From assembly GCF_900129905.1 (NCBI RefSeq), contig NZ_FQXG01000003.1:62001-126000 (forward strand): a DNA stretch of 64,000 bases. The letters run 5' to 3'. Shown piece after piece: positions 46,282 through 63,908 of this stretch (position 1 is the stretch's first letter; each line of letters begins with the position of its first letter). The DNA is from Ferrimonas marina (GTDB lineage: Bacteria; Pseudomonadota; Gammaproteobacteria; Enterobacterales; Shewanellaceae). The notes beneath the pieces are model-generated. The model saw only the letters and a program-made list of their open reading frames with translations, was not told the origin of the DNA and searched no databases. A program made the translations under genes and the position numbers.

Positions 46282-46311
46282 ATTTCCACTTCAAAACTGC
46301 AAAAGAAGCCG

Positions 46312-47013: not shown

Positions 47014-47056
47014 TAAGCCTGAACTCCTGGCTTTATCGCTTGGTAGCTAACAGCTT

Positions 47057-47083
47057 ATCGCACCCGGGTTCGCGGGGTGCGAT
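47057..47083 (-). terminator. Hairpin between flgN and fliA
   Basis: ATCGCACCC (47057-47065) pairs perfectly with GGGTGCGAT (47075-47083), directly after the flgN stop. It lacks a U-tract, so it may be an attenuator rather than a strong terminator. Two GCGATAA copies follow on the minus strand before fliA. Confidence 0.45.
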
Positions 47084-47085
47084 CT

Positions 47086-47550
47086 TCACTCGGAACCACT
47101 GATAATGCCGCGCTTGCCATAGAGCTTAGGAGCGTCGGATTCTGACCTGAGTTCTGGATCATACGGCGATGCAGAGGCCTTCACCTGGTTAAAGAACGCC
47201 TGGTTGGCCTGCATCATTTCCTGGAGTAGGGTCAGTTCCGCTTTAGCCAGTTCCCCGGCGGTCTTGCAGCGTTGCCAAAGTTCGGCAGCGGCCGGTTGCT
47301 GATCAAGCCAGCGGCGCATGATTTCGGGGTCATAGGCGCCCATAGCCTGCTTGCACTCAGCCTGGATACGCTGCAAGCGCTCGCCTGCGATGTGTGTTTG
47401 CAGCTCAATGGTATCCATGGCGCTGACAAACTGGCCTTGCTGGAACTGTGCTGCCGCGGTTCGGGCGGTAGGGACCGTCTGGATGATTGTTTCTGAAGCA
47501 TTGAGAAACAGGGTCATATCGTCGAACAGGGCTTTCCATTTACTGCTCAT
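47086..47550 (-). CDS. flgN: FlgN-like chaperone for hook-associated proteins
   Basis: A 154-residue helical protein of FlgN size (E. coli 138). It is made of long helices (LQRIQAECKQAMGAYDPEIMRR; AELAKAELTLLQEMMQANQAFFNQV). FlgN chaperones FlgK and FlgL; both are encoded elsewhere in the window. The call rests on size, helical content and position at the end of the flgB-to-flgJ operon, not on strong motifs. Overlaps flgJ by 11 bases. Confidence 0.6.
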   Translation of the reverse strand: MSSKWKALFDDMTLFLNASETIIQTVPTARTAAAQFQQGQFVSAMDTIELQTHIAGERLQRIQAECKQAMGAYDPEIMRRWLDQQPAAAELWQRCKTAGELAKAELTLLQEMMQANQAFFNQVKASASPYDPELRSESDAPKLYGKRGIISGSE

Positions 47551-47842
47551 TCTGGGCCTCAGGAGTTAGCTGTTGCTGTACTGCCTTGGGGAGGTAATCC
47601 AGTGGTCCCTTAACCAGTGACAGCACCATTTGGTGGTAATGGAGTTCTTGCGCCATAGACATGCCAGCGCTCTGGGTCTCGCTGCTTAGCTGTGACTCAG
47701 AGACAGACTGGTGCAGGCTCTTGGCCAGCATCATGGCGGTTAGGTGTTCGGAGAACGCCTTGATTTGTTCAGACTCGGGGGAGTCATGGGCAACAATCGG
47801 GCCACCCAGGACACCGCCGAGGGGGGGAATTTCGTTGATCAT
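47540..47842 (-). CDS. flgJ: FlgJ-like rod-capping protein, rod-binding domain only
   Basis: A 100-residue protein following flgI. The helical segment SEQIKAFSEHLTAMMLAKSLHQSV and later MSMAQELHYHQMVLSLV fit the rod-binding domain of FlgJ (F...l...l...m...; Y..m.d..la..l). The peptidoglycan-hydrolase domain found in enteric FlgJ is absent. Position immediately after flgI supports the call. Overlaps flgN. Confidence 0.7.
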   Translation of the reverse strand: MINEIPPLGGVLGGPIVAHDSPESEQIKAFSEHLTAMMLAKSLHQSVSESQLSSETQSAGMSMAQELHYHQMVLSLVKGPLDYLPKAVQQQLTPEAQNEQ

Positions 47843-47846
47843 CGCG

Positions 47847-48938
47847 TTAGATCACCACGAGCTTCGCCCTGAGCGAGCCGGACTTTTTCAACAGCTGAAG
47901 CAGGTGCGCCATATCCTTGGGAGCGGTACCAGCGCGGTTGAATGCCTCAACCAGGTCGCTAAGAGTCGGTTCACCCTGAGCGACGACTGAAAGTTGGCCT
48001 TGGGTTTGCTCAATCTGGATCTCGGAGTTGGCCGTCACAATGGTATCGCCACCGGAGAACGACCGTGGCTGATACACATTGCTGGCTTCAGAGACGCTGA
48101 TGGTCCAGCGGCCTTCAGAGATCGCCACAGGCCATAAAATCACGTTCTCGCTGATGGAGACCGTGCCGGTTCGGCTGTTGACGGTCACCTGGGCGCTGGG
48201 TCGACCCACCTCTACATCCAGGTTTTGTACTGCTGCTAGGAAGTCGACCCGGCTGCTGCCAGGTGCTGGCGATGCGACATCAACCAGGCCGGCATCAACT
48301 GCGGTGGCGGTGCCTGCGCCGAACGTTGAGTTGATCTCGTTCGCGATATTGGCGGCAGTCTCGTAGTTCGGTTCATTCAGCGTCAGGCGGATGCTGGCGC
48401 TGGTGGTGAAGGCGGTGTCTACATAGCGCTCGATGGTGGCGCCGCCAGGGATCCGGCCTACTGTCGTTGTGTTCACCTGAACAGTAGAGCCATCTAGGCC
48501 CTCAGCGGAAAGGCCATCAACCAGCACCTGGCCCTGGGCCACTGCATAGACGTTACCGTCCAGCCCAAGCAGTGGCGAGGCGATGAGCGAACCGCCCTTC
48601 AGACTCTTTGCGTTGCCAATTGAAGAGACGGTGACATCGATGGTTTGTCCGGTGCGCTTGAAGGGATCCAGCTCCGCAGAAACAACTACCACGGCAGCGT
48701 TCCGCGCCGAGATGTTGATGCCTTCAGGCAGTCTAAAGCCGTACTTTGTCAGTTGTGCCTCGATCGCCCTGTTAATGTAGGTGCTACGGTCACCGGTACC
48801 ATCCAGGCCGATCACCAACCCATACCCAGACAGCTGGTTTTGCCGCACACCTTCTACCTCAACCAGGTCGATGACCCTTTGGGCAAAGGATGGGGCCGAT
48901 GCCAGTAGAGCGCCGGCGAGTATTAGCATTCGAATCAT
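47847..48938 (-). CDS. flgI: FlgI flagellar P-ring protein
   Basis: A 363-residue periplasmic P-ring subunit. From ATG 48938 it has a signal peptide (MLILAGALLASAPSFAQ). The family motifs DLVEVEGVRQNQLSGYGLVIGLDGTGD, NAAVVVVSAELDPFKRTGQTIDVTVSSIGNAKSLKGGSLIASPLLG and GTVSISENVILWPVAISEG are unmistakable. FlgI starts shortly after the flgH stop. Requires outer-membrane-bearing cells. Confidence 0.95.
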   Translation of the reverse strand: MIRMLILAGALLASAPSFAQRVIDLVEVEGVRQNQLSGYGLVIGLDGTGDRSTYINRAIEAQLTKYGFRLPEGINISARNAAVVVVSAELDPFKRTGQTIDVTVSSIGNAKSLKGGSLIASPLLGLDGNVYAVAQGQVLVDGLSAEGLDGSTVQVNTTTVGRIPGGATIERYVDTAFTTSASIRLTLNEPNYETAANIANEINSTFGAGTATAVDAGLVDVASPAPGSSRVDFLAAVQNLDVEVGRPSAQVTVNSRTGTVSISENVILWPVAISEGRWTISVSEASNVYQPRSFSGGDTIVTANSEIQIEQTQGQLSVVAQGEPTLSDLVEAFNRAGTAPKDMAHLLQLLKKSGSLRAKLVVI

Positions 48939-48955
48939 ATTGGAAACCCCAATTG

Positions 48956-49648
48956 TTAAAACGGCCACCAGGCGCCAGACAGGAACCGGCTTGCCCAGCC
49001 TTTATTGCTGCCTTCGTGGATCTCGCCTTCACCCAAATAAACGATCTGGGCATTGGCCAGCTTCGATGAGGGGACCGAGTTGGTGGCGGTATCGATGTCT
49101 GCTTCTCGGATGATGCCGGAGAGGCCAATAGTCTCGGTGCCGTTCTTTAGGGAGACCCGTTTCTTCCCGGCTACAGCAAGGTTGCCGTTAGGGTACACCT
49201 TCACCACGGTCACCGTCAGGTTGCCCTGAATTGAGTGGCTTTGGCTGTTCTCACCCCTGCCGACAAACTGATTCCCGGACTTAATGCCAAGGGCCATCTT
49301 GGTGGGCGCGGACCCAGTATCAATGGTGACGTCGTTGCTGAAGGTGTGGTTGCGAGTGGTAGAAGAACCGGCCGAGTCCCGGGCCCTGATGTCCTCTTGC
49401 ACCTCGATTACGATCAGATCGCCAATACGATAGGAGCGCCCGGTGCCGACCAGGATGTTGGCGTTCTCACTGTAGATGGTGCCGACGTCTCGCTCAGCGA
49501 TCATGTCAAAGTCTGTCACGAGCTCGTCCGGCGTCAGGTAGGCATCAGTGGCATCCTCTGCATCCGGGGTCGAACTGCATCCCGACAGAAAAAGGCCGGC
49601 CAGCAGCAATGCTGCCGGGCCGGTCAAAAGACTATAAATATTGCGCAC
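48956..49648 (-). CDS. flgH: FlgH flagellar L-ring lipoprotein
   Basis: From GTG 49648, preceded by AAGGGA, the product is 230 residues with a lipobox LFLSGC ending at C24. The family motifs RIGDLIVIEVQED, SNDVTIDTGS and GNLTVTVVKVYPNGNLAVAGKKRVSLKNGTETIGLSGIIREADI are present. A start at 49672 (GTG) would lengthen it by eight residues. FlgH forms the L ring in the outer membrane, indicating a Gram-negative envelope. Confidence 0.94.
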   Translation of the reverse strand: MRNIYSLLTGPAALLLAGLFLSGCSSTPDAEDATDAYLTPDELVTDFDMIAERDVGTIYSENANILVGTGRSYRIGDLIVIEVQEDIRARDSAGSSTTRNHTFSNDVTIDTGSAPTKMALGIKSGNQFVGRGENSQSHSIQGNLTVTVVKVYPNGNLAVAGKKRVSLKNGTETIGLSGIIREADIDTATNSVPSSKLANAQIVYLGEGEIHEGSNKGWASRFLSGAWWPF

Positions 49649-49720
49649 GTTACTTCCCTTCTCGCTAGTCACTCTGGTGATGGTATCAAGCGGATGACAA
49701 ACCTACGATATTAATTGGGT

Positions 49721-50503
49721 TTAGCCGAGTTGTTGATTGGCGTACTGCGCCATCTCATCGGCCGCCTTCATGACCTTAGTGTTCAGTTCAAAGTTTCGCT
49801 GAACCTCGATGAGCTTAACCAGGTTGGTTACGGTATCAACGTTAGAGGCTTCCAGAGCGCCTTGCATGATGTCACCAAAGCCGTCGGTACCGGCCATGCC
49901 GTAAACACCGCTACCGCTTGCTGCTGTTGACTGGTATAGGTTGCCGGCCAGTGGTTTTAGGCCTTGGGGGTTTTGAAAGCGTACCAGTTCGATCTCCCCG
50001 AGGATCTGGGGGAATGGGTCGCCGGGGATCATGGCCTTTACCGTCCCGTTAGGATCGATGAGGATGTCTTCCGCTTCATCCGGAACGGTAATGTCGGCTG
50101 CCAGTTGATAGCCCTGCAGGGTTACAATTTGCCCTTCCGCATTACGCTTCAGCTGGCCATCACGGGTGTAGTATTCCGCGCCATCATCTTTGACGATGGG
50201 GATGAAGCCATCACCGGAGATGGCAACATCAAGGCTGCCATTGGTAATTTGCAGTGAACCCTGAGAGTAATCCTTGGCTACGCCGGCGATCTTCACACCA
50301 GTACCGGAGTAAACCCCGGTCACTGAACCGCCTGCAGCAGCATCAGGTTCCCGGACCTGCTGATACATCAGGCTTTGAAAAACGGCCTGCTCGCCCTTAA
50401 AGCCGATGGAAGAGGCATTGGCTAAGTTGTTGGCGATCTCTTGCATGCGGTGTTGCTCGGCATGCATCCCTGTGGCCGCGACGTTAACGCCTGGAATTGC
50501 CAT
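49721..50503 (-). CDS. flgG: FlgG distal rod protein
   Basis: A 260-residue axial rod protein of exactly the usual length (E. coli 260). The N-terminal NNLANASSIGFKGEQAVFQSLMYQ and C-terminal GDIMQGALEASNVDTVTNLVKLIEVQRNFELNTKVMKAADEM are diagnostic. FlgG forms the distal rod, joined to the hook by FlgE. Lies 2 bases after flgF. Confidence 0.95.
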   Translation of the reverse strand: MAIPGVNVAATGMHAEQHRMQEIANNLANASSIGFKGEQAVFQSLMYQQVREPDAAAGGSVTGVYSGTGVKIAGVAKDYSQGSLQITNGSLDVAISGDGFIPIVKDDGAEYYTRDGQLKRNAEGQIVTLQGYQLAADITVPDEAEDILIDPNGTVKAMIPGDPFPQILGEIELVRFQNPQGLKPLAGNLYQSTAASGSGVYGMAGTDGFGDIMQGALEASNVDTVTNLVKLIEVQRNFELNTKVMKAADEMAQYANQQLG

Positions 50504-50505
50504 GG

Positions 50506-51240
50506 CTATTGCCCCCTTAAGATACCGATTGATTGCCTGTGCATACTGTCAGAGGCCTTCATGAGTTTGATGCTTTGCTCGTAGCTACGCTGGATGTGGA
50601 CCAGCTCAGCAAGGCTGAGCATGCTGTCGACGTTACTGGACTCCAGCACGCCGGTACGGATCCCGTCCCCCTGGTAAATCCGAGGTGACTGGGTGTCATC
50701 AATGCTGATCAGCAGTCCCTCAGGGGACTTACCTAGCTTGAGGTGGTCAAGTTCCACCAGTTGCAGGTAGCCTTCCCGGAAGACTGCGCCGCTGGGTGAT
50801 CGAGCAATAATCTGCCCCTCAGGGCTGATCGTGACCTTACTACCGGTCGGCACCGAGGCGGGGCCGCGTTCATCAAGCAGGAAATGGCCCTCAGAGGTCC
50901 GCAACATCCCCTGGTTGTCGAGCTGGATGCTCGCCGTGGTTACATAGCCGCGACTGCCGGACGGTGTTTGCACCTCCATGTAGGCGCCGTTTGCCGTGGT
51001 CACGTCAAGTTCGCGGTTTGTGGTGCGCAGCGTCCCCCTGCTCTTGTCCACACTTAGCGACTCGAGTTGAGTGAAGGCGGTATCGTTCAGCCCTGGGCCG
51101 TTGAGGTACAGGGCGTGGAAGTCAGCTTGGTCAGCCTTGAAGCCAGGCGTATTGGCGTTGGCCACGTTGTGCGAAAGCACCGCTTCCTGCTGGAAGTGCT
51201 GTTTCGCTGCTGACATGCCGACGTATAACGAGTTATCCAT
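50506..51240 (-). CDS. flgF: FlgF proximal rod protein
   Basis: A 244-residue rod protein. The N-terminal AVLSHNVANANTPGFKADQADFHALYLNG and C-terminal GVLESSNVDSMLSLAELVHIQRSYEQSIKLMKASD are typical of FlgF. It begins MDNSLYVGMSAAKQHF, as in other FlgF proteins. Located between flgE and flgG in canonical order. Confidence 0.92.
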   Translation of the reverse strand: MDNSLYVGMSAAKQHFQQEAVLSHNVANANTPGFKADQADFHALYLNGPGLNDTAFTQLESLSVDKSRGTLRTTNRELDVTTANGAYMEVQTPSGSRGYVTTASIQLDNQGMLRTSEGHFLLDERGPASVPTGSKVTISPEGQIIARSPSGAVFREGYLQLVELDHLKLGKSPEGLLISIDDTQSPRIYQGDGIRTGVLESSNVDSMLSLAELVHIQRSYEQSIKLMKASDSMHRQSIGILRGQ

Positions 51241-51273
51241 TCAGTAAAACCGGCGGGCAGGGCCCGCCCTCAG

Positions 51274-52479
51274 TTACAGATTGTTGAGCGTCTGTGAAAC
51301 CTGCTTGCCCACGGACAGTACTTGGGCAGCAGATTGGTAGTTACGCTGATCGGTGATCAGGCCAACCATTTGCTCGGCGACGTCGACGTTCGACATCTCC
51401 AGGGTTTCAGACAGGATCATTGAGGATCCGCCGCTGACTTTGAAGATGGCTTCACCGGAATCGTTGGTTTGGCTGAAGTTTCCACGGTTAGTGGTAGACA
51501 GCTCATGCTGTGCAGCGAAGGTCGCCAGTGCTACTTGGCCAACTACACGCTTTTCACCATTGTCGAAGAATGCGGTCATCAGGCCATCGTTCTCGATCGT
51601 GAAGGTGGTGAATTCACCTGCCGCGTTACCATCGGAAGCTACATCGCGAACGGAGATGTCGTTAGCGTAAGCGGTACTGGCAGACATATCGAGGTCTACC
51701 GTGGTCACGCCGTATGCGCCCAGTGCAGTGCTCAGATCCAGCGGAAGGTGGCCGGCAGGGACTGTGGCTGCACCATTCACCAAGATGTCAGCCAGGGTGC
51801 CATCTGGATTAAACACCGCTTCATAGGTGTCGGCCGGGTTCACTGCGGTGCCTGCCAGGTCGAAGTTCATGGTCCAGGTTGTCTGGCCAACAACCGGAGT
51901 GTCAGGCTGCTCGTTACTGAACAGAGCTCCGAGTACGTGAGACTCACCACGGGAATCGTAGACGGTCAAAGAAGTGGTCAGAGTCGGCTGGCTAGGTACA
52001 GAGCCAAGGTTCACGGAAATGGTGCCATTGGCGGTTACCTGGGGCGCCATTGGGCTTTTATCCAGCTGCAGGGGTACGGTGTTGCCCGAGGTTTCTGGGT
52101 AGGGGTAGCCCTGTACCTGGTAGCCATTCTTGTCTACGAGGTAGCCTGCGAGATCCACATCGAACTGGCCATTGGGGGTGAATTCCACGGCGCCGGTCAG
52201 GGGGTTGGCAACTGCAAAGAAGCCTTGACCCACGATGGCCAAGTGAGTGGATTTGCCGGTGGTCTCATAGGCGCCATTGCCAAAGTCACGCTCAATGCTG
52301 GACAGCCGCGACCCCATACCTGGGGATGATTTACTTTCACCTGCGTAGACCGCTTCAAAGCTTGCGCGTTCACTCTTGAACCCGATGCTACCGGCGTTGG
52401 CAATATTGTTGGACCGGGTTGCCAGAGAAGCGCTGGCCGAGTTGATACCGGTTTTAGCAGCGTTCATGAAGTCAGACAT
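51274..52479 (-). CDS. flgE: FlgE hook protein
   Basis: A 401-residue hook protein (E. coli 402). From ATG 52479, with GGAG 6 bases upstream. The N-terminal SASLATRSNNIANAGSIGFKSERASFEAVYAGES and C-terminal LEMSNVDVAEQMVGLITDQRNYQSAAQVLSVGKQVSQTLNNL are diagnostic. Central segments SVNLGSVPSQ and LTVYDSRGESHVL match hook-protein D1/D2 domains. It forms the universal joint. Confidence 0.95.
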   Translation of the reverse strand: MSDFMNAAKTGINSASASLATRSNNIANAGSIGFKSERASFEAVYAGESKSSPGMGSRLSSIERDFGNGAYETTGKSTHLAIVGQGFFAVANPLTGAVEFTPNGQFDVDLAGYLVDKNGYQVQGYPYPETSGNTVPLQLDKSPMAPQVTANGTISVNLGSVPSQPTLTTSLTVYDSRGESHVLGALFSNEQPDTPVVGQTTWTMNFDLAGTAVNPADTYEAVFNPDGTLADILVNGAATVPAGHLPLDLSTALGAYGVTTVDLDMSASTAYANDISVRDVASDGNAAGEFTTFTIENDGLMTAFFDNGEKRVVGQVALATFAAQHELSTTNRGNFSQTNDSGEAIFKVSGGSSMILSETLEMSNVDVAEQMVGLITDQRNYQSAAQVLSVGKQVSQTLNNL

Positions 52480-52553
52480 GGAAACTCCATCTTTCAATAA
52501 ATATAGGGGTTATCCCTCTCATTCAGACCATTCTACAACGAGAGGGTGGAAAA

Positions 52554-53225
52554 CTATCGAATCTGGTAAACATCACCCATAAGGATTTGCGCACCGCCGG
52601 TGATCACCCCGCGGTTCTCTGGGTAGAAGGTCACGGACTCAATTTTGCCGACAGCAAACACTGGGACGATTTTTTGGTCTTCGCCGGCCAGGGCGGTGAT
52701 CCTGTATTCACCGGGTAGAGCATTAATGCCAGTGCTGGTGATCCCATTCCAACTCCACGCATAGCTGCCATCGGTTTCCTCTGTAGCGGCAAAGGTGGCG
52801 ACCAGCGTGTCGCTCATGTCCTTCACTTCGATGCTGACCGCTGCACCAAGCAGTTCGGAGCCTGGCTCAACAATGCCAGCGATCGACGCTGACTTCTCGT
52901 TCCAGTACACGTTGTTAACGTAGAAGTCGGCCTCGTGGCCAACGAAGGCAGAGGTATTCATGCTGGCCTGGTACATGGAGGTGACGTTGGCCATCTCAAG
53001 GTTCTGGTTCACCTTCTCCAGCTGTTCCACCTGGGACAGCGTCGCCAGCTGTTGGATCATCTGGGAGTTGTCCATTGGCTCTGTCGGATCCTGGTTCTGG
53101 ATTTGAGCGAGAAACAGCGTCATGAACTGGTCATTGAGCTCAACGCTGTTGGCCAGCGCCGGGCCCGACATGGCAATAAAGCCGGCGGATAGTGCAGCCC
53201 CCAGGTAGTGTTTCGGGTTGATCAT
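52554..53225 (-). CDS. flgD: FlgD hook scaffold protein
   Basis: A 223-residue hook cap. The N-terminal part contains LNDQFMTLFLAQIQNQDPTEPMDNSQMIQQLATLSQVEQLEKVN, a FlgD signature. The C-terminal half has tudor/Ig-like strands and ends MGDVYQIR. Its start overlaps the flgC stop (TAATG). An alternative annotation would start slightly downstream because the first 24 residues are hydrophobic and signal-like (HYLGAALSAGFIAMSGPALA), unusual for FlgD. Confidence 0.9.
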   Translation of the reverse strand: MINPKHYLGAALSAGFIAMSGPALANSVELNDQFMTLFLAQIQNQDPTEPMDNSQMIQQLATLSQVEQLEKVNQNLEMANVTSMYQASMNTSAFVGHEADFYVNNVYWNEKSASIAGIVEPGSELLGAAVSIEVKDMSDTLVATFAATEETDGSYAWSWNGITSTGINALPGEYRITALAGEDQKIVPVFAVGKIESVTFYPENRGVITGGAQILMGDVYQIR

Positions 53226-53638
53226 TATTTTGCCCCCATGGCTCTGATGGTCGCCTCGGCCAGGGACTTGCTGGCTTTGAGGACCTCTACGTTGGCTTCG
53301 AACGAACGCTGGGCGCTCATCATGTCTGCCATCTGCTCTACGGTGTTCACATTGCTTTTGTATACGTAGCCATTCGGATCGGCAAGGGGGTGATTGGGGG
53401 AATACACCGCGGTGGGCGGCGCCTTGGACTCAACTATCTCGGTTACGCGCACGCCTAACCCTGGGTCACTGGGGTTGACGCGGTGTGATTCAAACAGGGG
53501 CAGCTTGGCCCTGAAGGCCTCAGCTTCACTGCTCGAGACAGACTCAGCATTAGCCAGATTGCTGGCAATGGTGTTCAGTCGAGTCGACTGAGCACTCATG
53601 CCGGAAGCAGAGACGTCGATTGCATTAATAATGGACAT
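53225..53638 (-). CDS. flgC: FlgC proximal rod protein
   Basis: A 137-residue rod protein (E. coli 134). SASGMSAQSTRLNTIASNLANAESVSS at the N-terminus and NVNTVEQMADMMSAQRSFEANVEVLKASKSLAEATIRAMG at the C-terminus are diagnostic. Starts overlapping the flgB stop (TAATG) and ends overlapping flgD (TAATG). Confidence 0.94.
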   Translation of the reverse strand: MSIINAIDVSASGMSAQSTRLNTIASNLANAESVSSSEAEAFRAKLPLFESHRVNPSDPGLGVRVTEIVESKAPPTAVYSPNHPLADPNGYVYKSNVNTVEQMADMMSAQRSFEANVEVLKASKSLAEATIRAMGAK

Positions 53639-54021
53639 TACTGGCCCTTGATCGCTTTTCGGAGGCCCTGAGAGCTGCCTTGAAGAAGTTCTAAGGCTAA
53701 ATTGTAACCGGTAACGGCCTTAGCGTGCTCGGTTGTTTCGCGGTGTATGTCCACGGTATTGCCATCAGCGGATCCAGTGCTTGGCCGCTGGTATTCCACA
53801 TTGAAACGACCGTGTGCTGTTGGATCCAGGTGCCCAGAATGCGTTGTTGTCATCCGCAGAGGGGCGCTCGCGTCGGCACGGCTCATTGCTGCCTCGAAGT
53901 CGATGGACTGGGCTTGATAGTGCGGTGTGTCCGCATTTGCGATGTTACCCGCGATGACGGACAGTTGCGCTTCCCTGGCTTCAAGGGCCACAGAATACGG
54001 CCCGAGAACGGTCTCGAACAT
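53638..54021 (-). CDS. flgB: FlgB proximal rod protein
   Basis: A 127-residue rod protein (E. coli 138). ALEAREAQLSVIAGNIANADTPHYQAQSIDFEAAM is the FlgB N-terminal signature, and the C-terminal NTVDIHRETTEHAKAVTGYNLALELL the axial helix. GAGGTG precedes the ATG. It is the first gene of the flgBCDEFGHIJN operon and is divergent from fliH, 115 bases away. Confidence 0.93.
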   Translation of the reverse strand: MFETVLGPYSVALEAREAQLSVIAGNIANADTPHYQAQSIDFEAAMSRADASAPLRMTTTHSGHLDPTAHGRFNVEYQRPSTGSADGNTVDIHRETTEHAKAVTGYNLALELLQGSSQGLRKAIKGQ

Positions 54022-54034
54022 TGATTACACCTCA

Positions 54035-54064
54035 TTGATTTTTCAAACTATCCCATTGTACAAT
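54035..54064 (+). promoter_or_regulatory. Sigma-70-like promoter before fliH, overlapping ATTGTACAAT palindrome
   Basis: TTGATT (54035-54040), an 18-base spacer and TACAAT (54059-54064) stand in the plus direction 73 bases before the fliH start. The -10 lies in the perfect palindrome ATTGTACAAT (54055-54064). It could therefore serve both directions, but no good -35 exists for flgB. Confidence 0.4.
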
Positions 54065-54136
54065 CCGTGCCCAGTAAGGGCGAGGATTTGCCTGATCTGC
54101 GTTGAATTGCAGTAGTACCGGAGGCGCCGGCTAGTT

Positions 54137-54796
54137 ATGGAAGACAGCAATAAATTTAACACCTTTGGGCCTGGAGATTTCCAGGATGAAGAGCGGCCCG
54201 GTGTTTCTCGTGAAACATCTGCCATTACGGTGTCAGTTGATGAGCACCCCCTCGGCGGCGCTGAGACGCTCGCCGAGGAGCAAGATGTACCTGAAGTCGC
54301 TGTTGTGCCTTCTGAGGAGCAGTTACAGGCTAGCTACGAGGCTGGCTTGGCAGAAGGGTACGAGAGGGGGCGTCAGGAGGCTGAAGAATCCGCTGAGCGT
54401 CGGGCATCCCAGGTGCGAGAAGAGGCGGCCAACCTTGTAAAATCGCTGGAGCTAAGTCGCATAATTATCCCCCCTCAAACGGATCATGTGTTGATCGACT
54501 TTGTTCAGGACCTTTGCCGTCACTTTTATCGCGACCAGGTGCTGGTTAAGCCTGAAGTTCTGGCTGGCCTCGTGGAGCAAGGGATGCAAACTGTTCGATC
54601 TTCTCATCCCGTATCCATACGGGTTTCGGCGAACGAAACAGAGCAATCTGTCAGTTTGCTGCGTGATGCCATAGGCGACCGTGGAGAAGTGGTGAGCGAC
54701 GCGGGGTTAGATGTCGGTGATTTTGTTCTCTTTACCGATGAGGGATCCGTGCACGCGAAACTCAGCGAGCGCCTGGCATCACTATTTCAGGACTGA
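54137..54796 (+). CDS. fliH: FliH flagellar export ATPase regulator
   Basis: A 219-residue cytoplasmic protein of FliH size (E. coli 235). An acidic N-terminus is followed by LQASYEAGLAEGYERGRQEAEESAERRASQVREEA, the GxxxG-bearing helix characteristic of FliH. The C-terminal domain (VLIDFVQDLCRHFYRD... PEVLAGLVEQGMQTV) contacts FliI. Separated 14 bases from fliP. FliI itself is about 30 kb away. Confidence 0.82.
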   Translation: MEDSNKFNTFGPGDFQDEERPGVSRETSAITVSVDEHPLGGAETLAEEQDVPEVAVVPSEEQLQASYEAGLAEGYERGRQEAEESAERRASQVREEAANLVKSLELSRIIIPPQTDHVLIDFVQDLCRHFYRDQVLVKPEVLAGLVEQGMQTVRSSHPVSIRVSANETEQSVSLLRDAIGDRGEVVSDAGLDVGDFVLFTDEGSVHAKLSERLASLFQD

Positions 54797-54810
54797 GGCC
54801 CTATCCTACT

Positions 54811-55536
54811 ATGCGTAATTATCTGCTGATGATTCTGTTGCTGCTGCCGGCAGCAAGTTTTGGTGCTGAAATACCCTTGCTGACCTCGGTGAACACAGAG
54901 ACGGGTACGGAGTTGACAACCAACTACCGCGTACTACTTCTGATGACCGTTTTGGGCTTCCTGCCAGCGTTGGTAGTTGCCTTGTCGCCGTTCACCAGGA
55001 TCTATATCGTGCTCAGTCTGCTTAGGTTGGCTTTGGGTACCCAACAAACACCAGGCAACCGGGTGTTGGTAGGCGTGGCCTTGTTAATGTCAGGCTTTAT
55101 TATGCAACCAGTGCTCAAGGACATGAATGAGAATGCACTGCAGCCCTACATCCAGGGGCAGATTACCGATCAGGAGGCCCTGGATGGTATTCAGGCTCCA
55201 TTGCGGAAGTTCCTGATGGACCAGACTCGCAAGCAGGACGTAGACGACTTCTTGGCCATTACAGGGACCGTGGTGAGTGACCAGGATGAAATACCCTTCC
55301 TGCACCTGGCCGCGGCTTTCATCGTCTCTGAGCTTCAGAGTGCCTTCCAGATCGGCCTGGTTCTCTTCGTGCCGTTTTTGATCATTGACCTTGTGGTGGC
55401 TTCGACCTTGATGTCGATGGGGATGATGATGGTTTCGCCAATGATCTTCTCGATACCGTTCAAGATTGCCCTTTTCACCCTGGTCAGTGGTTGGTCATTG
55501 CTGGTTCAGGGACTCTCCCAGAGCTACTACTTCTAG
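54811..55536 (+). CDS. fliP: FliP flagellar export gate protein
   Basis: A 241-residue protein (E. coli 245) with a signal peptide (LLMILLLLPAASFGAE). The family motifs YRVLLLMTVLGFLPALVVALSPFTRIYIVLSLLRLALGTQQTPGNRVLVGVAL, DDFLAI and ASTLMSMGMMMVSPMIFSIPFKIALFTLVSGWSLLV are clear. FliP forms the export gate with FliQ, FliR and FlhB. No fliO lies beside it in the window. Confidence 0.95.
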   Translation: MRNYLLMILLLLPAASFGAEIPLLTSVNTETGTELTTNYRVLLLMTVLGFLPALVVALSPFTRIYIVLSLLRLALGTQQTPGNRVLVGVALLMSGFIMQPVLKDMNENALQPYIQGQITDQEALDGIQAPLRKFLMDQTRKQDVDDFLAITGTVVSDQDEIPFLHLAAAFIVSELQSAFQIGLVLFVPFLIIDLVVASTLMSMGMMMVSPMIFSIPFKIALFTLVSGWSLLVQGLSQSYYF

Positions 55537-55547
55537 CGAGGTCGGCC

Positions 55548-55820
55548 GTGGATAAACAGTTTGTCCTCCAGATCATGCAAGATTCGATACTGCTGGCAGC
55601 TAAGATCGGTGGTCCCCTGATTGGCACCAGTCTATTACTGGGCGTGGTTGTGGCCCTGTTCATGGCGGCCACCAAGGTCAACGAAGCCAGCCTAAGCTTC
55701 GTTCCGAAGCTGGTCGGTATCGCTGTGGTGGCGCTGCTGATGGGGTCGTGGATGCTGGACGCAATGATGGCTTTCACCATACAGTTGTTTGCCAGCATTC
55801 CTAAGTTTGTCGGTGTGTAA
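55548..55820 (+). CDS. fliQ: FliQ flagellar export gate protein
   Basis: A 90-residue membrane protein (E. coli 89) starting at GTG 55548, with GAGG 7 bases upstream. A longer frame from 55491 would overlap fliP and lacks family resemblance. Two membrane spans are present, with DSILLAAKIGGPLIGTSLLLGVVVALFMAATKVNEASLSFVPKLVGIAVV. It overlaps fliR (TAATG) and lies 11 bases after fliP. Confidence 0.92.
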   Translation: MDKQFVLQIMQDSILLAAKIGGPLIGTSLLLGVVVALFMAATKVNEASLSFVPKLVGIAVVALLMGSWMLDAMMAFTIQLFASIPKFVGV

Positions 55821-56611
55821 TGGAACCGCTCCTTGGTCTGCTCCTTGCCCTTGTAACTGATGAGCAGTTAGCGGCATTCAGCTTTGCGGTGATCCGTATC
55901 GGTTCGTTTCTGCTGACTGCGCCATTGCTGAGCATGTCCGTGGTCTCCCCGCTTACCCGGGGTGTCGCTTCTTTGGCCTTTGCACTGGTGGTGCACCCTA
56001 CCCTATCTGTTCCAGCTGAACTTGGCATGGTGAACGGGGTAGCCTCTCTGATGGTGGTTGCGGCAGTTCACGAAGTGATCACCGGGCTTCTGATGGGCTT
56101 TGTCTTCTACGTAACCATGGAGATCCTAAGGATCGCGGGCTTGATGATGTCTTACGCTACACAGCTGGGCATGTCGCAGATGGTGGATCCCGCGACTCAG
56201 AGCCAGTCGGCCGTACTGGATAACTTCCTCTACTATGTTGGCCGGCTTTACTTCCTCGCGGCCTTTGGGGTTAGTTTTATGCTTGGCGCGGTGTTCAAGA
56301 GCTTTGAGACCATACCGATTGGCCACGCTATTTTTGCGGATCTATCACCGCTGACCGTCGCTTTGTGGACCAACTCAATGTGGGCTCACGCCATGATGAT
56401 GGCGATACCGTCCTTTGGTGTGGCTCTGACGTTGCAGGGGGCGATGGCGGTGATCACCCGTTCGGCGCCGACCCTAAACATCTTCAGCATTGGCTTCCCG
56501 ATAGTTATTGCCGTTGGTATCTACATGTTCGGGCAGTTTGCTCCGGTGATCCTGCGTAACTTTGAGGCGGCCGTTCCCTCAATGCTTGGGATCCTTGCGG
56601 GGGTGCTTTGA
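55820..56611 (+). CDS. fliR: FliR flagellar export gate protein
   Basis: A 263-residue polytopic protein (E. coli 261) with about six membrane spans. SFAVIRIGSFLLTAPLLS and EILRIAGLMMSYATQLGMSQMVDPATQSQSAVLDNFLYYVGRLYFL are typical of FliR. The start overlaps the fliQ stop and the end overlaps flhB (TGATG). Component of the export gate. Confidence 0.94.
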   Translation: MEPLLGLLLALVTDEQLAAFSFAVIRIGSFLLTAPLLSMSVVSPLTRGVASLAFALVVHPTLSVPAELGMVNGVASLMVVAAVHEVITGLLMGFVFYVTMEILRIAGLMMSYATQLGMSQMVDPATQSQSAVLDNFLYYVGRLYFLAAFGVSFMLGAVFKSFETIPIGHAIFADLSPLTVALWTNSMWAHAMMMAIPSFGVALTLQGAMAVITRSAPTLNIFSIGFPIVIAVGIYMFGQFAPVILRNFEAAVPSMLGILAGVL

Positions 56612-57741
56612 TGGCAGGAGACTCAACCCAAGACAAAACGCATAAGCCAACGCCAAAGAAGCTGGCAGACGCCAAGAAAAACGGCGAGGTGCCGCGAAGC
56701 GATGAGTTATCGAAGACTATCTCTTTGCTGGCTGGGTTTACGCTTCTCTGGATTGGCTTTGCGGGGATACTGCGTGGGATCATCTACATGCTTACCGAAG
56801 CGTTGTCGTATCACCCAGGCAAGGAGCTTACACCTGAAACCCTTCTCGGCCTGGTAGGCGAATTCCTCTATGCAGCATTTAGCCCCCTGTTCCCTATCGC
56901 CATAGCGTTGGCCGTCATCATGTATCTGTCTGAAACCCTGATGGGCGGGCAGATCTTTAGGCTTAAGAATGCTGCCCCGAAACTGTCCAACCTGGATATC
57001 GTTAAGGGCTTCGGTGAGATGGTGTCAGCATCAAACGCGATGACCTTGCTTAAGAGTATTCTCAAGCTGTGCCTGGTGCTCTCGGTGCTGTCGGTCGCCT
57101 TCGGGGATACGGTAGATCATTTCGTTGGCTTAATGGGCTTGCCCTACCACATCGCTCTGGGGGAGCTGGGACGCACTGTTATCGTCCTGCTACTCGCTTA
57201 CTCGGCGTCATTGATCGTGATTACAGCAATCGACGTCGGCTTCCAGCAAAAGCAGTTTATGAAGCAGATGATGATGACCACTCAGGACATTCGCGAAGAG
57301 TTTAAGCAAATGGAAGGCGACCCCATGATCAAGGGGCGTATCCGGGAAACAGCAAACCGGAACGCACAGTCGAGTTCATTGGAGGCCGTACCTGCAGCTG
57401 ACGCCGTGCTGGTTAACCCAGAGCACTATGCGGTGGCCATTCGCTATGACAAGAGCAAAGACCCCGTGCCACGAGTACTAAGCATTGGTGGTGATCACCT
57501 GGCCTTCAGGATCCGCCAAATTGCGACCGCGCATGAGATCCCCGTGTTGCCGGTACCGCCTCTTGCAAGGGCGATCTACTTCAATTGCCAGCCTGGCGGG
57601 TTCATCCCCAAAGACCTTTTTGAGCCTGTTGCAACGGTTCTGAGCTACCTGAACCATCTTGACGACCCACTGAGTTTTAAAATCGATGAGTCGTTCCTGG
57701 GGGACCTGAACGTGCCAAGGGAGTTGTCAGATCCTGAGTAG
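56608..57741 (+). CDS. flhB: FlhB export switch protein with NPEH motif
   Basis: A 377-residue protein (E. coli 382) with four membrane spans (residues about 30-230) and a cytoplasmic switch domain. The start DKTHKPTPKKLADAKKNGEVPRSDEL and the region DIREEFKQMEGDPMIKGRIR are diagnostic. The self-cleavage site, normally NPTH, is NPEH here (N270, P271, E272, H273). PLARAIY and IRYDKSKDPVPRVLSIGGDHLAFRIRQIA follow. FlhB changes export specificity after hook completion. Last gene of the fliHPQR-flhB operon. Confidence 0.94.
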   Translation: MMAGDSTQDKTHKPTPKKLADAKKNGEVPRSDELSKTISLLAGFTLLWIGFAGILRGIIYMLTEALSYHPGKELTPETLLGLVGEFLYAAFSPLFPIAIALAVIMYLSETLMGGQIFRLKNAAPKLSNLDIVKGFGEMVSASNAMTLLKSILKLCLVLSVLSVAFGDTVDHFVGLMGLPYHIALGELGRTVIVLLLAYSASLIVITAIDVGFQQKQFMKQMMMTTQDIREEFKQMEGDPMIKGRIRETANRNAQSSSLEAVPAADAVLVNPEHYAVAIRYDKSKDPVPRVLSIGGDHLAFRIRQIATAHEIPVLPVPPLARAIYFNCQPGGFIPKDLFEPVATVLSYLNHLDDPLSFKIDESFLGDLNVPRELSDPE

Positions 57742-57843
57742 CGCCGAGTAACCGTTTAACACATCATCTTCACAGATCCTCTGGCGAGTTTTCCTACCCT
57801 AATCATTCAAAAAGGTGAAGGGGTGAGAAGGGGTTTTCTGGTT

Positions 57844-57852
57844 CGATCCGCC
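57844..57852 (-). repeat. Inverted partial iteron
   Basis: CGATCCGCC is the reverse complement of GGCGGATCG, the core and 3' flank of the origin repeat. It is isolated about 340 bases upstream of the direct repeats and may be an extra initiator contact or chance. Confidence 0.4.
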
Positions 57853-58190
57853 AAAAATCGTATCAAAACTACAGTTTCATATACTGGCGATTATTCGATC
57901 GCTGTAACAATGGCTTGCGTACATCCCGTGAACCCGGTCTGGTGTAAAGTCCGGCCAGCCAGCTCCTCTCAAGCTTTGACACTATCCCTAGGCTTTGACC
58001 TTCACACAGGGGCCCCTGAGAGGCTCCCTGCTGCACTTTGTGCACTCAGTGCACTCAGTGTGTCTGGTTACTACTAAACCCGCTCTGTGGGCCCTCTGGT
58101 GCAGACATACACGCCGAAAAACACTGGAGTGATGGCAGCACGACACGGCGCGCCCGTTTCTCTGAGGCGGCCATCGTTTGTTGTAGGCGG

Positions 58191-58980
58191 ATCAGGCGAA
58201 ACCCGTGGGCGAGGTTATCAACCCCCTGTTTGTTGGCCCGTTGGGCCACTGTAGCTTCACCATAGCGGTCAAAAGGTTCTTCTGTTGTAGGCGGATCAGC
58301 ATCCAGCGAAATACTGGCCGACTGGGCCGACACAACCCCTTGTCACGTGGCTACTGCGTTGGCTGAATCATAGATGACTTGTTGTAGGCGGATCGGTATG
58401 CCGCCTCGCACAAGATGGTTCAATGCTCACCGCCCGGTATGGTTACCAATGAGGTGTGCCCTCCCTGTTTGTTGTAGGCGGATCGAAATGCCGGCCGAAT
58501 GCTACAGCAGCAATTTGATGTAGGCGGATCGCGCAGATGAGTGTATCGGCACGGTGGGTTGTTCCTGGGGCGAAATGGCAGAGTCGTCTCCCGTGGACAC
58601 AGGGAGGTGTCATTGAGCTTAACCTGATGTAGGCGGATCGATTTGGCAGATCATAGTGAGTTGCCTCACTGCATATACTGCCATGTGTGCTCTGGGCTGT
58701 GCTCTGTCGCGATGTGGAGGGCCGTACCGGGTTGCATAGTGTAGCGATCGGTATTTGATCGCCAATGCGATCTTCGATCGAATGGATCGACAGCTTTGTT
58801 GTAGGCGGATCGGTTTGGGCCCGGGCGGTACCGCTGTCTAGACCCAGAGTCGGAGTGCACGCTGGATGCTCCAGTATGCAGGTCCTGTAAGGTAACGGTA
58901 AGGCGGGGCAAGGTGAAGTTAGAAGACCAGAAGCGCTTACGGATAATGACAATTGGGTTGGATCAGTTGTTGGCGGATCG
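58191..58980 (+). repeat. Direct repeats TGTAGGCGGATC (iterons) with a Dam site
   Basis: Exact copies of TGTAGGCGGATC begin at 58192, 58286, 58383, 58473, 58519, 58628 and 58800, and a one-mismatch copy TGTTGGCGGATC begins at 58968. Each ends with GATC, the Dam methylation site; five of the eight are preceded by TTGT or GTTG. Spacing is irregular and wide (46-172 bases). RctB binding sites in Vibrio are 11-12-mers that contain GATC and depend on Dam methylation, so these are likely initiator-binding iterons. They lie upstream of an RctB-like gene. Confidence 0.85.
58746..58811. other. Cluster of six GATC sites
   Basis: GATC occurs at 58746, 58757, 58769, 58776, 58785 and 58808, six times in 66 bases, the last within an iteron. 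This is far denser than chance. Such clusters at other origins bind SeqA when hemimethylated and delay re-initiation. Confidence 0.55.
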
Positions 58981-59077
58981 CTAATCTGATGAACATATCT
59001 GGATTTGCGCTTGTATCTGTTGAGGGCTGATTGGTATTATGAAGTTGTCTTATCGCTATTGTGATGAGGCTTGAAAA

Positions 59078-59086
59078 TTATCCACA
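59078..59086 (+). other. DnaA box TTATCCACA
   Basis: A perfect match to the strong DnaA box TTATCCACA. It lies about 430 bases before the initiator start. Confidence 0.75.
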
Positions 59087-59096
59087 ACCCCCTCCC

Positions 59097-59105
59097 TGTG
59101 AATAA
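59097..59105 (-). other. DnaA box TTATTCACA (inverted)
   Basis: TGTGAATAA on the plus strand is TTATTCACA on the minus strand, matching the TTATNCACA DnaA consensus. It faces the box at 59078, separated by ten bases. Confidence 0.65.
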
Positions 59106-59133
59106 GCACTAGCATAAGCTGTTAATAAGCTGT
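59101..59133 (+). repeat. Phased ATAAGC repeats, possible unwinding element
   Basis: ATAAGC occurs at 59102, 59114 and 59125, about one helical turn apart; the last two extend to ATAAGCTGT. They directly follow the DnaA boxes. An AT-rich stretch runs on to about 59360. Such phased repeats beside DnaA boxes are typical of origin unwinding elements; function is inferred. Confidence 0.45.
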
Positions 59134-59323
59134 ATACACCCTGTTGGCAACACCAAAATATTTGATGTTGACCGATCGAGTTTTGTTGAAGGCTAATTAC
59201 CGCCCTGTTGAAGCAATTAAGTTCATTAAGAATGGCTCATCGAAATAACACCTGTATTCCATTGGCCGGCTTTATTAAAATACCCCATTGAGACAGCCAT
59301 CTAGTTCGATCTGAAATGATCGC

Positions 59324-59470
59324 TCTGTTCAAAAAATAATCCCACAACACTCGAACAGAAAAACTTCATGTACAAAGAGACCTTATAAGATCTAGCACCG
59401 GCACAAGCGCCGTTCGATCAGCCAACAGAAATCCTTCAAAACTCCAAAAAAAACAATTGACAGTTTTTGG
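59324..59470. promoter_or_regulatory. Two inverted repeats near the rep promoter
   Basis: TCTGTTC (59324-59330) pairs with GAACAGA (59353-59359). CCAAAAA (59444-59450) pairs with TTTTTGG (59464-59470) and brackets the -35 of the rep promoter. Both are candidates for autorepression sites of the initiator. No direct proof from sequence. Confidence 0.35.
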
Positions 59471-59485
59471 GGTCACTCTTACGAT
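59457..59485 (+). promoter_or_regulatory. Promoter of the rctB-like gene
   Basis: A consensus TTGACA (59457-59462), a 17-base spacer and TACGAT (59480-59485). The ATG of the initiator is at 59514. Confidence 0.6.
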
Positions 59486-59513
59486 GACCAAGTTGATTTT
59501 GAAGTGGTGATGT

Positions 59514-61625
59514 ATGGATAGCTTGTGCTTAAGTGGGTCCGAGGGATTGACCCAGGCTGATGGCAACCTGATCTTGGTTGACGACATCGAGTCGATGAGA
59601 GCGGTTTTGGAGCAGTGCAGCGCTCCCAAAAATCCAATCTTGTCCCAAAGCCACCAAGACATAATCAAGGTGGTTTGTTGGTCTTTGAGGCCTACGGAAG
59701 GTCGGCAGTTCATCACTGTCAAACAGATCCAGCAAGCCATCGGTCTTGAGCGTGATGTTGTCAATCAACGGATCAGCCGGATCCGGAGCAAGGGTGTGTT
59801 GAAGAAGGTTGAGTTTACTCTTCCCGAAGGAACACCGGCTCTGCCAAAGACTCAGTGCATGCGCATGGCTACTCTGATCGAGCTTGCCTCCATTGCTCAG
59901 GCATCCGAAAAGCGGAACCAGCGAGCGGCTAGTGCTAAGAACCGTTCTGGTACTGGCCGAGCAGCTAAGAAGGCTTTTTTGGCAACCCAGGGGCTTCCAG
60001 CAGAGATGGCTGTGGATGTCCCAGAATCCCCCAGGGGCCTGATCCCGAAGAACACCCCTCCCTTCGAGCAGATTGTTCCTCCTAAGGGCTCTGCAAAGAA
60101 GAAGCATGTTGCCAATGTATCTAGGGGTCATGACAAGTTCATGGTCTCCTGTGCCACTACTGATGACCACGTGATGGAACTAGAGGACCTGCAGGTGCTC
60201 TATTTGCTGATCGCGATGACCATTAATCAGTGGTCCAACTGCATCGAGTTCCTTAAGCAAAAGCAGATTAAGCCTTTTAATCGGGCATATATCGAGGTCA
60301 ACCAGATGTGCAAGATCCTGAATAAGTCAGGGTCGTTTTGGTACAAGAACCTAGCAAAGAGTGTTCTCAGGATTAAATCAACGGTGTTCGACCTTCACCA
60401 ATTGGAGGCGATGTACATCGATGATGAGGGGAATGACATCTACAGCAGCAAGGAATTCCGTTTCTTTCAGAACTGCACCTCGTATTCTAAGGATCGGGCC
60501 CGGGTTGTCGAAACCGATGAGGGTGAAGAAGTCGAGGTTTTGCCAAAGTCATTCATGATCGAGTGGAACGAAGAGCTCTACAAGAACATGCTGACAGACA
60601 AACACTTGTTCGTGCTGCCTATCTCCGTCCTTAGTGCACATCCAGATATTTTCTGGCTGTACGTTCACCTGCGTAACCGCTTCAGTAAGAAGTCAGAACG
60701 GGTCGTCATTGACATCCAGGAGCTGCATGACCGAATGAGCCCTGGCCAGACTGCTACCAACTTCAAGCGGACGCTGGCCACCGCACTGGAACAGTGGCGA
60801 AAGCGACCTGGTGTCACCACATCAACCAGTGAGGCATGTGAAATGGACATTGCTGGTCAGATGCAGGAGTTGACTGTAACAGCCATCGACTTGGAAGGCT
60901 TCCAGGTTGAGTTGTACACCGACGGCAAGCCAGATCGGATTGTCCGTCTGGAGGCTACCTGTAATCACCACAAGATGCTCAAATCACTGCATATAGACAG
61001 CGGTACGGATGGCATGGCGCCTGGTAAAGACATCAAGGCAGCACCTCAGGTTCCTAACCCGCTGACTGCACTTGAACCGGTAATGCGCTTTGCTCGCGAG
61101 CGTGGTGAGGAGTGGCCTAAAGAATTCCTCATTCGGATTGCTCAGAAGAAACTCCAAGATAGCGTTAGTTTCAGGCAAAGTAAGTACCTGCTCACCTGCA
61201 CTATCAACGATACTCAGAACCAGTACGTTTTGACTAGGTACAGCAGGTTTGAAGACTTAATGTTGGTTGCCGGCGCACTGGAGTTGGATATCGCTGATGA
61301 AGCCTCGCTATTTTCGATGCTGGACAAGAAGCGTGCGCAGCTATCGCTAATTCAGTGCGAGGGGGAGAAAGGTGTAAAGGGTCTCTCGCTGGATTCCTTC
61401 TCAGACCTCCAGGAGCGTCTGTACAGGCAGCACGCAACCGTTGTAGAGACCACTGAGCTGGTAGAGTTCCTGATTCAGAGATCGACTCTGAGACGCTCTG
61501 TTATCGATGCTTGGTCCAGCCGTTCAGAGGACGCCAGGGTTAAGATGACCATGGCCGTTGTTAAAGCGCTGGGTGGAGCTTCATTCGTACAGGAGCGGAG
61601 TGCAGAACAGCAAGCGTTATTCTGA
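59514..61625 (+). CDS. rctB: RctB-like replication initiator
   Basis: A 703-residue initiator (Vibrio RctB about 658). Similarity to RctB remembered from family sequences is spread over the protein. It is clearest at the block FMIEWNEELYKNMLTDKHLFVLPISVLSAHPDIFWLYVHLRNRFSKKSERVVIDIQELHDRM, at MVSCATTDDHVMELEDLQVLYLLIAMTI, and at VPNPL near residue 520. The N-terminal part has HTH-like ITVKQIQQAIGLERDVVNQRISRIRSKGVL. RctB binds GATC-containing iterons and opens the origin. The GATC repeats, DnaA boxes and a strong promoter lie just upstream. The divergence from Vibrio RctB is substantial, so the symbol denotes family rather than identity. Stop overlaps the convergent gene by nine bases. Confidence 0.78.
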   Translation: MDSLCLSGSEGLTQADGNLILVDDIESMRAVLEQCSAPKNPILSQSHQDIIKVVCWSLRPTEGRQFITVKQIQQAIGLERDVVNQRISRIRSKGVLKKVEFTLPEGTPALPKTQCMRMATLIELASIAQASEKRNQRAASAKNRSGTGRAAKKAFLATQGLPAEMAVDVPESPRGLIPKNTPPFEQIVPPKGSAKKKHVANVSRGHDKFMVSCATTDDHVMELEDLQVLYLLIAMTINQWSNCIEFLKQKQIKPFNRAYIEVNQMCKILNKSGSFWYKNLAKSVLRIKSTVFDLHQLEAMYIDDEGNDIYSSKEFRFFQNCTSYSKDRARVVETDEGEEVEVLPKSFMIEWNEELYKNMLTDKHLFVLPISVLSAHPDIFWLYVHLRNRFSKKSERVVIDIQELHDRMSPGQTATNFKRTLATALEQWRKRPGVTTSTSEACEMDIAGQMQELTVTAIDLEGFQVELYTDGKPDRIVRLEATCNHHKMLKSLHIDSGTDGMAPGKDIKAAPQVPNPLTALEPVMRFARERGEEWPKEFLIRIAQKKLQDSVSFRQSKYLLTCTINDTQNQYVLTRYSRFEDLMLVAGALELDIADEASLFSMLDKKRAQLSLIQCEGEKGVKGLSLDSFSDLQERLYRQHATVVETTELVEFLIQRSTLRRSVIDAWSSRSEDARVKMTMAVVKALGGASFVQERSAEQQALF

Positions 61626-63785: not shown

Positions 63786-63804
63786 CTGTATCGATTCGAT
63801 ACAG
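63786..63804. repeat. Palindrome CTGTATCGATTCGATACAG
   Basis: A perfect 9-bp inverted repeat with one central T. Such an odd-centred 19-bp palindrome fits a dimeric DNA-binding protein site. It shares the core TGTATCGA-n-TCGATACA with the second copy 105 bases away. It could be a centromere (parS-like) or operator. Note that it lies within 2.2 kb of the initiator, where partition genes often reside. Confidence 0.6.
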
Positions 63805-63891: not shown

Positions 63892-63908
63892 TGTATCGAC
63901 TCGATACA
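63892..63908. repeat. Palindrome TGTATCGACTCGATACA
   Basis: An 8-bp inverted repeat TGTATCGA / TCGATACA around a central C, the second copy of the palindrome at 63786. A matching half-site TCGATACA is at 63973-63980, so a third, degenerate copy may be centred near 63972. Confidence 0.6.

Follow-up and report, generated by a model that had tools for sequence, protein, structure and literature searches.

A probable RctB-type replication origin with GATC-bearing iterons on a large plasmid-derived replicon of Ferrimonas marina

Introduction

The replication initiator RctB has been studied mainly on the second chromosome (Chr2) of Vibrio, where Dam control and two-way replication accompany a conserved second chromosome. 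The Vibrio origin ori2 combines RctB with GATC-containing 12-mers on one strand, separated by 10-11 bp spacers, and with a DnaA box and an AT-rich stretch upstream of rctB, according to PMC6090056. Outside the Vibrionales, the RctB domain was reported only in Plesiomonas and in Ferrimonas marina, in one of six Ferrimonas strains, and that study names the Ferrimonas match and then sets it aside (PMC8826520, 2022). The F. marina rctB gene had been noticed earlier, then, but seemingly not described. Here we present the region 57742-61625 of a 64,000-nucleotide stretch of F. marina DNA, the whole of which is called the window below. The window corresponds to positions 62001-126000 of a contig of 576,248 bp (C10) in a genome of 4.98 Mb in 18 contigs. 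Its sequence makes it very probable that replication of C10, a large secondary replicon of plasmid descent, starts in this region.

Results

Initiator gene and iteron array

The region holds a gene for an RctB-like initiator, preceded by repeats of the 12-mer TGTAGGCGGATC.

59514..61625, + strand: rctB-like replication initiator, 703 residues, ATG start (PF11826, PDB RctB, MAFFT alignment)
58182..58193, + strand: iteron 1, TGTAGGCGGATC, exact
58286..58297, + strand: iteron 2, exact
58383..58394, + strand: iteron 3, exact
58473..58484, + strand: iteron 4, exact
58519..58530, + strand: iteron 5, exact
58628..58639, + strand: iteron 6, exact
58800..58811, + strand: iteron 7, exact
58968..58979, + strand: iteron 8, one mismatch (TGTTGGCGGATC)

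By sequence comparison, membership in the RctB family is settled for the central part of the initiator, since the Pfam model RctB_central (PF11826) matched residues 195-418 at 2.8e-16 (60 bits against a cut-off of 27) and the solved V. cholerae RctB (5ubf_A) matched residues 187-427 at 4.1e-16. A second PDB sequence, 5tbf_A, which its depositors named a translation factor, matched at 4.4e-16. Twenty-four RctB proteins were aligned along most of their length by MAFFT, the window initiator being 15-20% identical to the other 23. The N-terminal helix-turn-helix (HTH_55) domain I and the C-terminal domain IV were aligned in this way with no Pfam match there, and a global MAFFT alignment alone is no proof of homology for the protein ends. 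On the opposite strand, a 393-residue open reading frame (ORF; 61617-62798) overlaps the final bases of rctB; it had no family match above cut-off, and to our own reading it looks like a secreted coiled-coil protein.

All eight repeats stand upstream of rctB on the + strand, with start-to-start distances of 104, 97, 90, 46, 109, 172, and 168 bp. Allowing up to two mismatches, the window contained 15 matches to TGTAGGCGGATC where 4.96 were expected, and none of 100 shuffles had as many. The whole genome holds eight exact copies, seven of them within 630 bp at the array and one inside an ORF on the chromosomal contig C6. Three stretches of C10 are read as N, the longest from 512001 to 576248, so that about 512 kb of this unclosed contig are readable, and in that readable part no copy was found outside the array, even at one mismatch. 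The conserved repeat unit is longer than 12 bp: TTGWTGTAGGCGGATC is exact in five of the eight copies and has one mismatch in two more. At up to two mismatches the longer unit was found at five places off C10, against one in the reversed control. The exact 12-mer on C6 (C6:397523), whose ORF is potA-like by our reading of its neighbours, was tried as a crtS-like site and rejected, since chance alone should give about 0.6 such matches over both strands of 5 Mb; according to PMC6090056, crtS and the 12-mer are dissimilar. Two degenerate copies in inverted orientation were also recorded.

57845..57856, - strand: degenerate inverted iteron, two mismatches, at the flhB-side edge (weak)
59416..59427, - strand: degenerate inverted iteron, two mismatches, directly upstream of the rctB promoter (weak)

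The second of these is a candidate autoregulatory operator. Both are weak evidence, because about five two-mismatch matches per window are expected by chance.

Other origin elements

Within the array, and between it and the initiator gene, the following elements were located.

58746..58788, no strand: five GATC sites, 7-12 bp apart, candidate SeqA/Dam target
58942..59513, no strand: AT-rich stretch, 56-62% AT per 100 bp, candidate unwinding element
59078..59086, + strand: DnaA box TTATCCACA
59097..59105, - strand: DnaA box TTATTCACA
59457..59485, + strand: sigma-70-like promoter before rctB, TTGACA-17-TACGAT, 10/12

Both DnaA boxes are perfect TTATNCACA; the motif occurs three times in the window, a number no higher than chance, since 12 of 100 shuffles have at least as many, but two of these occurrences share a 28-bp span of the origin. 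The stretch 57742-59513 has 23 GATC sites, whereas windows of that size across C10 average 10.4 (sd 4.0). At least 23 were reached in 4 of 565 overlapping C10 windows, some of which may be the origin itself. The 10-kb bins of C10 mostly have 40-48% AT. The gene for SeqA lies on C18 and D12-class methylases are encoded on C13 and C10, the Dam methylase of C10 (L013:4195-5007) matching TIGR00571 (dam) at 3.1e-72, above cut-off. The original prediction, made from this sequence, had named a 703-residue RctB-like initiator, seven exact and one near copy of the iteron, DnaA boxes, and a consensus promoter. The first three were all recovered as listed above. The promoter is present with its 10 of 12 consensus positions, but such sites are no commoner than chance, with 5 in 57600-64000 against 5.9 expected.

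That the 12-mers are operators, or a repeat of some other function beside the rctB gene, and not iterons, would agree with their wide and irregular spacing. We regard this as very improbable, given a same-strand GATC array directly upstream of the initiator, with DnaA boxes and AT-rich DNA after it, an arrangement close to those described for Vibrio and Plesiomonas. Like ori2, the C10 origin unites RctB with same-strand GATC 12-mers, a DnaA box, and an AT-rich stretch before rctB, and like the Chr2-type systems it has a GATC in each iteron and a host with a Dam-class methylase and SeqA. It differs in its initiator, which is 17-18% identical to the five Chr2-type proteins, and in the iteron end, GGCGGATC in the window against the GCATGATCA repeated in five Chr2-type origins. 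The replicon is also not conserved in the host genus, so that clade-wide presence, as expected of a chromid, was not observed. The Plesiomonas shigelloides chromid (PMC8826520) likewise has an RctB outside the Vibrionales, scattered spacing, and a GATC-rich origin, and of its published repeats the 10-mer ends in GGATC and the 8-mer holds GGATC. The window initiator is, however, 17% identical to that of Plesiomonas, whose replicon was present in all four genomes and nine strains examined there; its parAB genes lie across the origin, whereas the parA-like gene of C10 is found 4.4 kb downstream of rctB. Two replichores with KOPS (FtsK orienting polar sequences) are described for that chromid in the same paper.

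Replicon and partition

The KOPS motif GGGNAGGG, that of E. coli, was borne out in the host on C6, which carries a dif-like site: forward and reverse copies number 54/1 and 4/50 on either side of dif. On C10 we counted 7 forward and 26 reverse copies to the left and 86 and 10 to the right. The best change point falls between 125674 and 126330, which is 2-3 kb past the rctB gene, and none of 2000 label permutations was as strong. Two candidate parS sites lie close by.

63787..63803, no strand: palindrome TGTATCGATTCGATACA, candidate parS
63892..63908, no strand: palindrome TGTATCGACTCGATACA, candidate parS

The palindrome TGTATCGANTCGATACA was found at five places genome-wide, all on C10 (125787, 125892, 126069, 127656, and 317895), of which the first two are in the window and four are at the KOPS flip. 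A ParA-like ATPase gene begins at C10:128031 (PF13614, 3.8e-17) and is followed by a gene for a 395-residue protein with no Pfam match. Because the KOPS flip, the palindromes, and the ParA-like ATPase gather here, there are good grounds for seeing the locus as the origin-partition hub of its own replicon. C10 itself looks to be a separate replicon; its G+C content is 52-60% in nearly all 10-kb bins, against 57-62% in the sampled 400 kb of C6. No Rep_3 initiator was found in the genome at E 0.001, other kinds of initiator not being searched.

A second FtsZ is encoded beside the partition-like genes (L018:10796-11911, C10:130796-131911), with one more ftsZ on C13; the top matches to the C10 protein in the plasmid collection carry the annotation ftsZ and share 58% identity with it over 81% of its length. 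C10 carries several replication genes, namely a DNA polymerase III alpha subunit in the window (29797-33498, + strand, 1233 residues, PF07733 6.2e-97) and DNA polymerase I-like and topoisomerase genes (L019:475-2820 and L019:3997-5565). In the 26 of 29 C10 pieces scanned, five tRNAs were predicted (for Ser, Tyr, Ser, Tyr, and Arg) along with one transfer-messenger RNA-like gene, at L012:14430-14791, L029:6419-6732, and L033:8060-8159 and 19272-19345.

Direction of replication

GC skew was positive in all 23 left and all 76 right 5-kb windows of readable C10, with no sign change. The third-position strand component is positive on both arms, +0.099 (0.075 to 0.122) on the left and +0.168 (0.155 to 0.181) on the right, the two confidence intervals not overlapping, so gene strand does not explain the skew; on C6 the same code gave a component that flips sign at dif (+0.043, -0.022). 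An upward step in skew is best placed near C10:129 kb, with a bootstrap range of 123-136 kb, and was matched in 0 of 500 block permutations; on the right arm the skew reaches 0.125, about four times that of C6 (0.03).

Such figures could also come about if the RctB locus were a relic or passenger and C10 part of a larger molecule, with the true origin elsewhere and the whole contig a single replichore. The uniformly positive skew over the readable 512 kb would suit this, as would a genome in 18 contigs in which C10 is not closed. We nevertheless consider it improbable: the KOPS flip and the skew step fall at the locus, the right-arm skew is far above and the G+C content below those of C6, rctB is intact with seven of eight iterons identical, and the parA-like gene and the palindromes confined to C10 adjoin it. 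Integration in the main chromosome was likewise thought unlikely, from KOPS, G+C content, and skew strength.

KOPS and skew disagree on C10, since KOPS polarity is two-sided and the skew is one-signed. A Tus homologue is encoded at C10:26226-27125 (L013:6226-7125), matching NF002810 at E 1.9e-35, which is below the equivalog cut-off (122 against 323 bits), and a solved Tus at 8.6e-21. The Tus of an Aliivibrio wodanis plasmid used as query also found a match on C10, and that of a Vibrio harveyi plasmid found none there. Genes annotated as Tus stand near rctB on both of these plasmids (L139:6832-7812 and L143:1720-2721, respectively), and fork traps may be common on RctB plasmids. The Dam methylase and Tus homologue genes of C10 are about 1.2 kb apart.

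With skew positive on both sides of the origin and a Tus homologue on the replicon, replication of C10 could be largely one-way and rightward, a reading to which we give slightly less than even weight. As a plain fact, unidirectional replication was rejected, the left-arm KOPS running opposite, and we keep it as an inference. Pseudoalteromonas chromids, mostly unidirectional according to PMC7858055, likewise have one-signed skew and tus on the replicon. They differ by a RepA-type initiator, by tus in the origin cluster, and by dif mostly next to the origin, whereas on C10 about 94 kb separate tus from the iterons and dif was not found on the readable part. The left-arm KOPS speak against a dif adjoining the C10 origin.

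The same RctB origin may instead fire in both directions, the left arm (C10:1-120000) having been copied one way until a recent change, with skew lagging behind and the selected KOPS already in the new arrangement. The two-sided KOPS polarity and the weaker skew of the left arm fit this, and such a switch is shown by Pseudoalteromonas chromids (PMC7858055). Four other RctB replicons or contigs were profiled, and three of them change skew sign near rctB: contig G046:C70 at about 100-120 kb (rctB at about 109.8-111.9 kb), the Photobacterium toruni plasmid, and, weakly, the V. chagasii plasmid; the fourth, G193:C7, was irregular and uninformative. All 23 left 5-kb windows being positive speaks against a change of this kind, as does the observation that most other skewed left-arm octamers follow the right-arm strand. 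The octamers are weak evidence, because their selection drew on the entire contig and several of them have little bias on C6. We take this two-way alternative, the main rival of the one-way reading, to be a serious possibility, if somewhat short of even. A recent inversion of the left arm was discarded, as it would flip KOPS and skew together and no such joint flip was seen.

Distribution and RctB phylogeny

With the window initiator as query, 3 of 60 genomes matched, namely its own and two of other families; there was no match in 13 other genomes of the genus or in 22 other genomes of the family. PF11826 matched 38 of 394 genomes of the order, one of them below cut-off, and 33 of the 38 belong to one family, presumably the Vibrionaceae. 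In the plasmid collection 19 records matched the window initiator, all from Vibrionaceae, with plasmid unnamed2 of P. toruni ranked first; another RctB family member as query also found Oceanisphaera, Plesiomonas, and Aliivibrio plasmid records. No RctB relatives were found in the phage, viral contig, and genome contig collections.

An IQ-TREE phylogeny of 24 RctB proteins, which has long branches, placed the window initiator on a long branch among Vibrionaceae plasmid proteins, with no supported sister. It lies outside the separate clade (100/100) of five Chr2-type proteins, and Plesiomonas RctB groups with those of G046, G089, and a V. nigripulchritudo plasmid (100/99). GATC-bearing 9-mers in at least three copies were found in 15 of 23 classed RctB origins, the twenty-fourth (Vnig_pVNTG2) being left out with only 440 bp upstream. 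Five origins (G046, G089, Vpen_p, Vchag_p1, and Ptor_97kb) have a commonest upstream repeat other than the GATC-bearing one. GATC iterons as the mark of one clade were rejected: five changes are needed on the tree, and since 51 of 500 shuffles do as well, no clustering is shown. The 114-kb RctB plasmid of Oceanisphaera (Aeromonadales; L138:4001-5923) has upstream repeats without GATC.

Modules common with other RctB plasmids

Three further features of the window have counterparts on RctB plasmids of Vibrionaceae.

18155..57741, no strand: additional large cluster of flagellar genes whose flhB stops immediately ahead of the origin region; an orthologous cluster is found on the RctB plasmid of P. 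toruni
2602..5019, + strand: TraG/TraD-like coupling protein of a Dot/Icm-type transfer system (PF12696, 3.6e-7)
6997..10539, - strand: Mfd-like helicase (PF00270, PF03461, PF21132), with a homologue on the P. toruni RctB plasmid, 34% identical over 1124 residues

Plasmid unnamed2 of P. toruni WD2103 (NZ_CP101697.1, 97 kb) encodes an RctB 25% identical to ours over 510 residues and shares with C10 the flagellar cluster, for the most part in matching blocks, as well as an Mfd-like helicase and a CheY-like gene. The comparison with C10 gave 32 reciprocal best hits, of which 29 fall in 18155-57741, mostly collinear in blocks; one of these 29 is an antisense ORF within flhA. The FlhB of this plasmid ranked first of 225 plasmid records. 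Its FlhA is 52% identical to that of the window, against 45% for the best-scoring other genome (310 of 394 genomes of the order matched), and in a tree with nine of those FlhA sequences the two form a pair (100/100), although long branches and sequence composition raised warnings there. The plasmid differs from C10 in size (97 kb against at least 512 kb readable), in a further annotated replication initiation gene, in parAB beside rctB, and in its skew sign change near rctB.

Plasmid p1 of V. chagasii (NZ_AP025467.1, 188 kb) resembles C10 in RctB, Dot/Icm-type transfer genes, topoisomerase, helicase, and RecA. There were 31 reciprocal best hits, at least one of them antisense, including a run of transfer genes at C10:149-166 kb and the coupling protein of the window (28.6% over 622 residues). 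It differs in having no flagellar genes among these hits, an annotated ParM-type partition system, and a weak skew sign change. C10 thus has the look of an RctB plasmid equipped with both a transfer system and a flagellar cluster, each of them present on another RctB plasmid as well.

Discussion

In the mechanism that we propose, RctB would bind the iterons, probably better when they are Dam-methylated, would melt the AT-rich stretch together with DnaA, and would repress its own promoter. Sequestration of the GATC-rich origin by SeqA would limit initiation by RctB. A rightward fork might then copy most of C10, while a leftward fork would as a rule be missing or come to an early halt, perhaps through the C10-encoded Tus homologue; this directional part we hold at just under an even chance.

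Several results weigh against an RctB origin serving C10 in this manner. No NCBIfam model was above cut-off for the initiator, and the single-sequence structure model had a mean predicted local distance difference test score of 33.4 and was not used. The iterons are spaced 46-172 bp from start to start, unlike the tight and regular ori2 array with its 10-11 bp spacers, and no long repeat family like the 39-mers or 29-mers was recognised in the origin, though such elements could be single or diverged. C10 is incomplete, 512001-576248 being read as N, and no dif was found on its readable part with an E. coli-type pattern. For the skew step, several positions from 125 to 194 kb fit nearly as well. 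As to one-way replication, the left-arm KOPS are oriented outward from the origin, the pattern of a two-way replicon, and Ter-like sites for the C10 Tus, sought with an E. coli-type pattern, showed no excess over a reversed control.

The secondary replicon of the original prediction is supported by the nearby KOPS flip, the lower G+C content than C6, and the genes common with RctB plasmids, on a contig that is not closed. Its distinct iteron core is real but makes a weak claim to novelty, because the repeats generally vary from one RctB lineage to another, and GATC-bearing ones are seen repeatedly, with cores that differ. Less ordinary than a private iteron are the discord of skew and KOPS and the modules common with other RctB plasmids, neither of which formed part of the original prediction. 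Our literature search, which did not look for KOPS by name, found no account of this replicon, of flagellar clusters on RctB plasmids, or of a disagreement between KOPS and skew in an RctB replicon. Tentatively, and with more doubt than confidence, we suggest that C10 may be the first RctB replicon to replicate mainly one way: a conjugative, flagellar Ferrimonas megaplasmid whose Dam-type origin fires rightward, with Tus stopping the leftward fork and KOPS already two-sided, between a one-way plasmid and a two-way chromosome, and descended from an RctB plasmid lineage that carries a flagellar set between marine families.

Dam-type iterons need not accompany chromosome status, since this RctB replicon with GATC iterons looks plasmid-like and is absent from 13 other genomes of the genus. 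The discord of KOPS and skew is relevant to the passage of plasmids from one-way to two-way replication, and the core of RctB and flagellar genes in common with Photobacterium suggests one route by which flagellar gene sets may pass between families.

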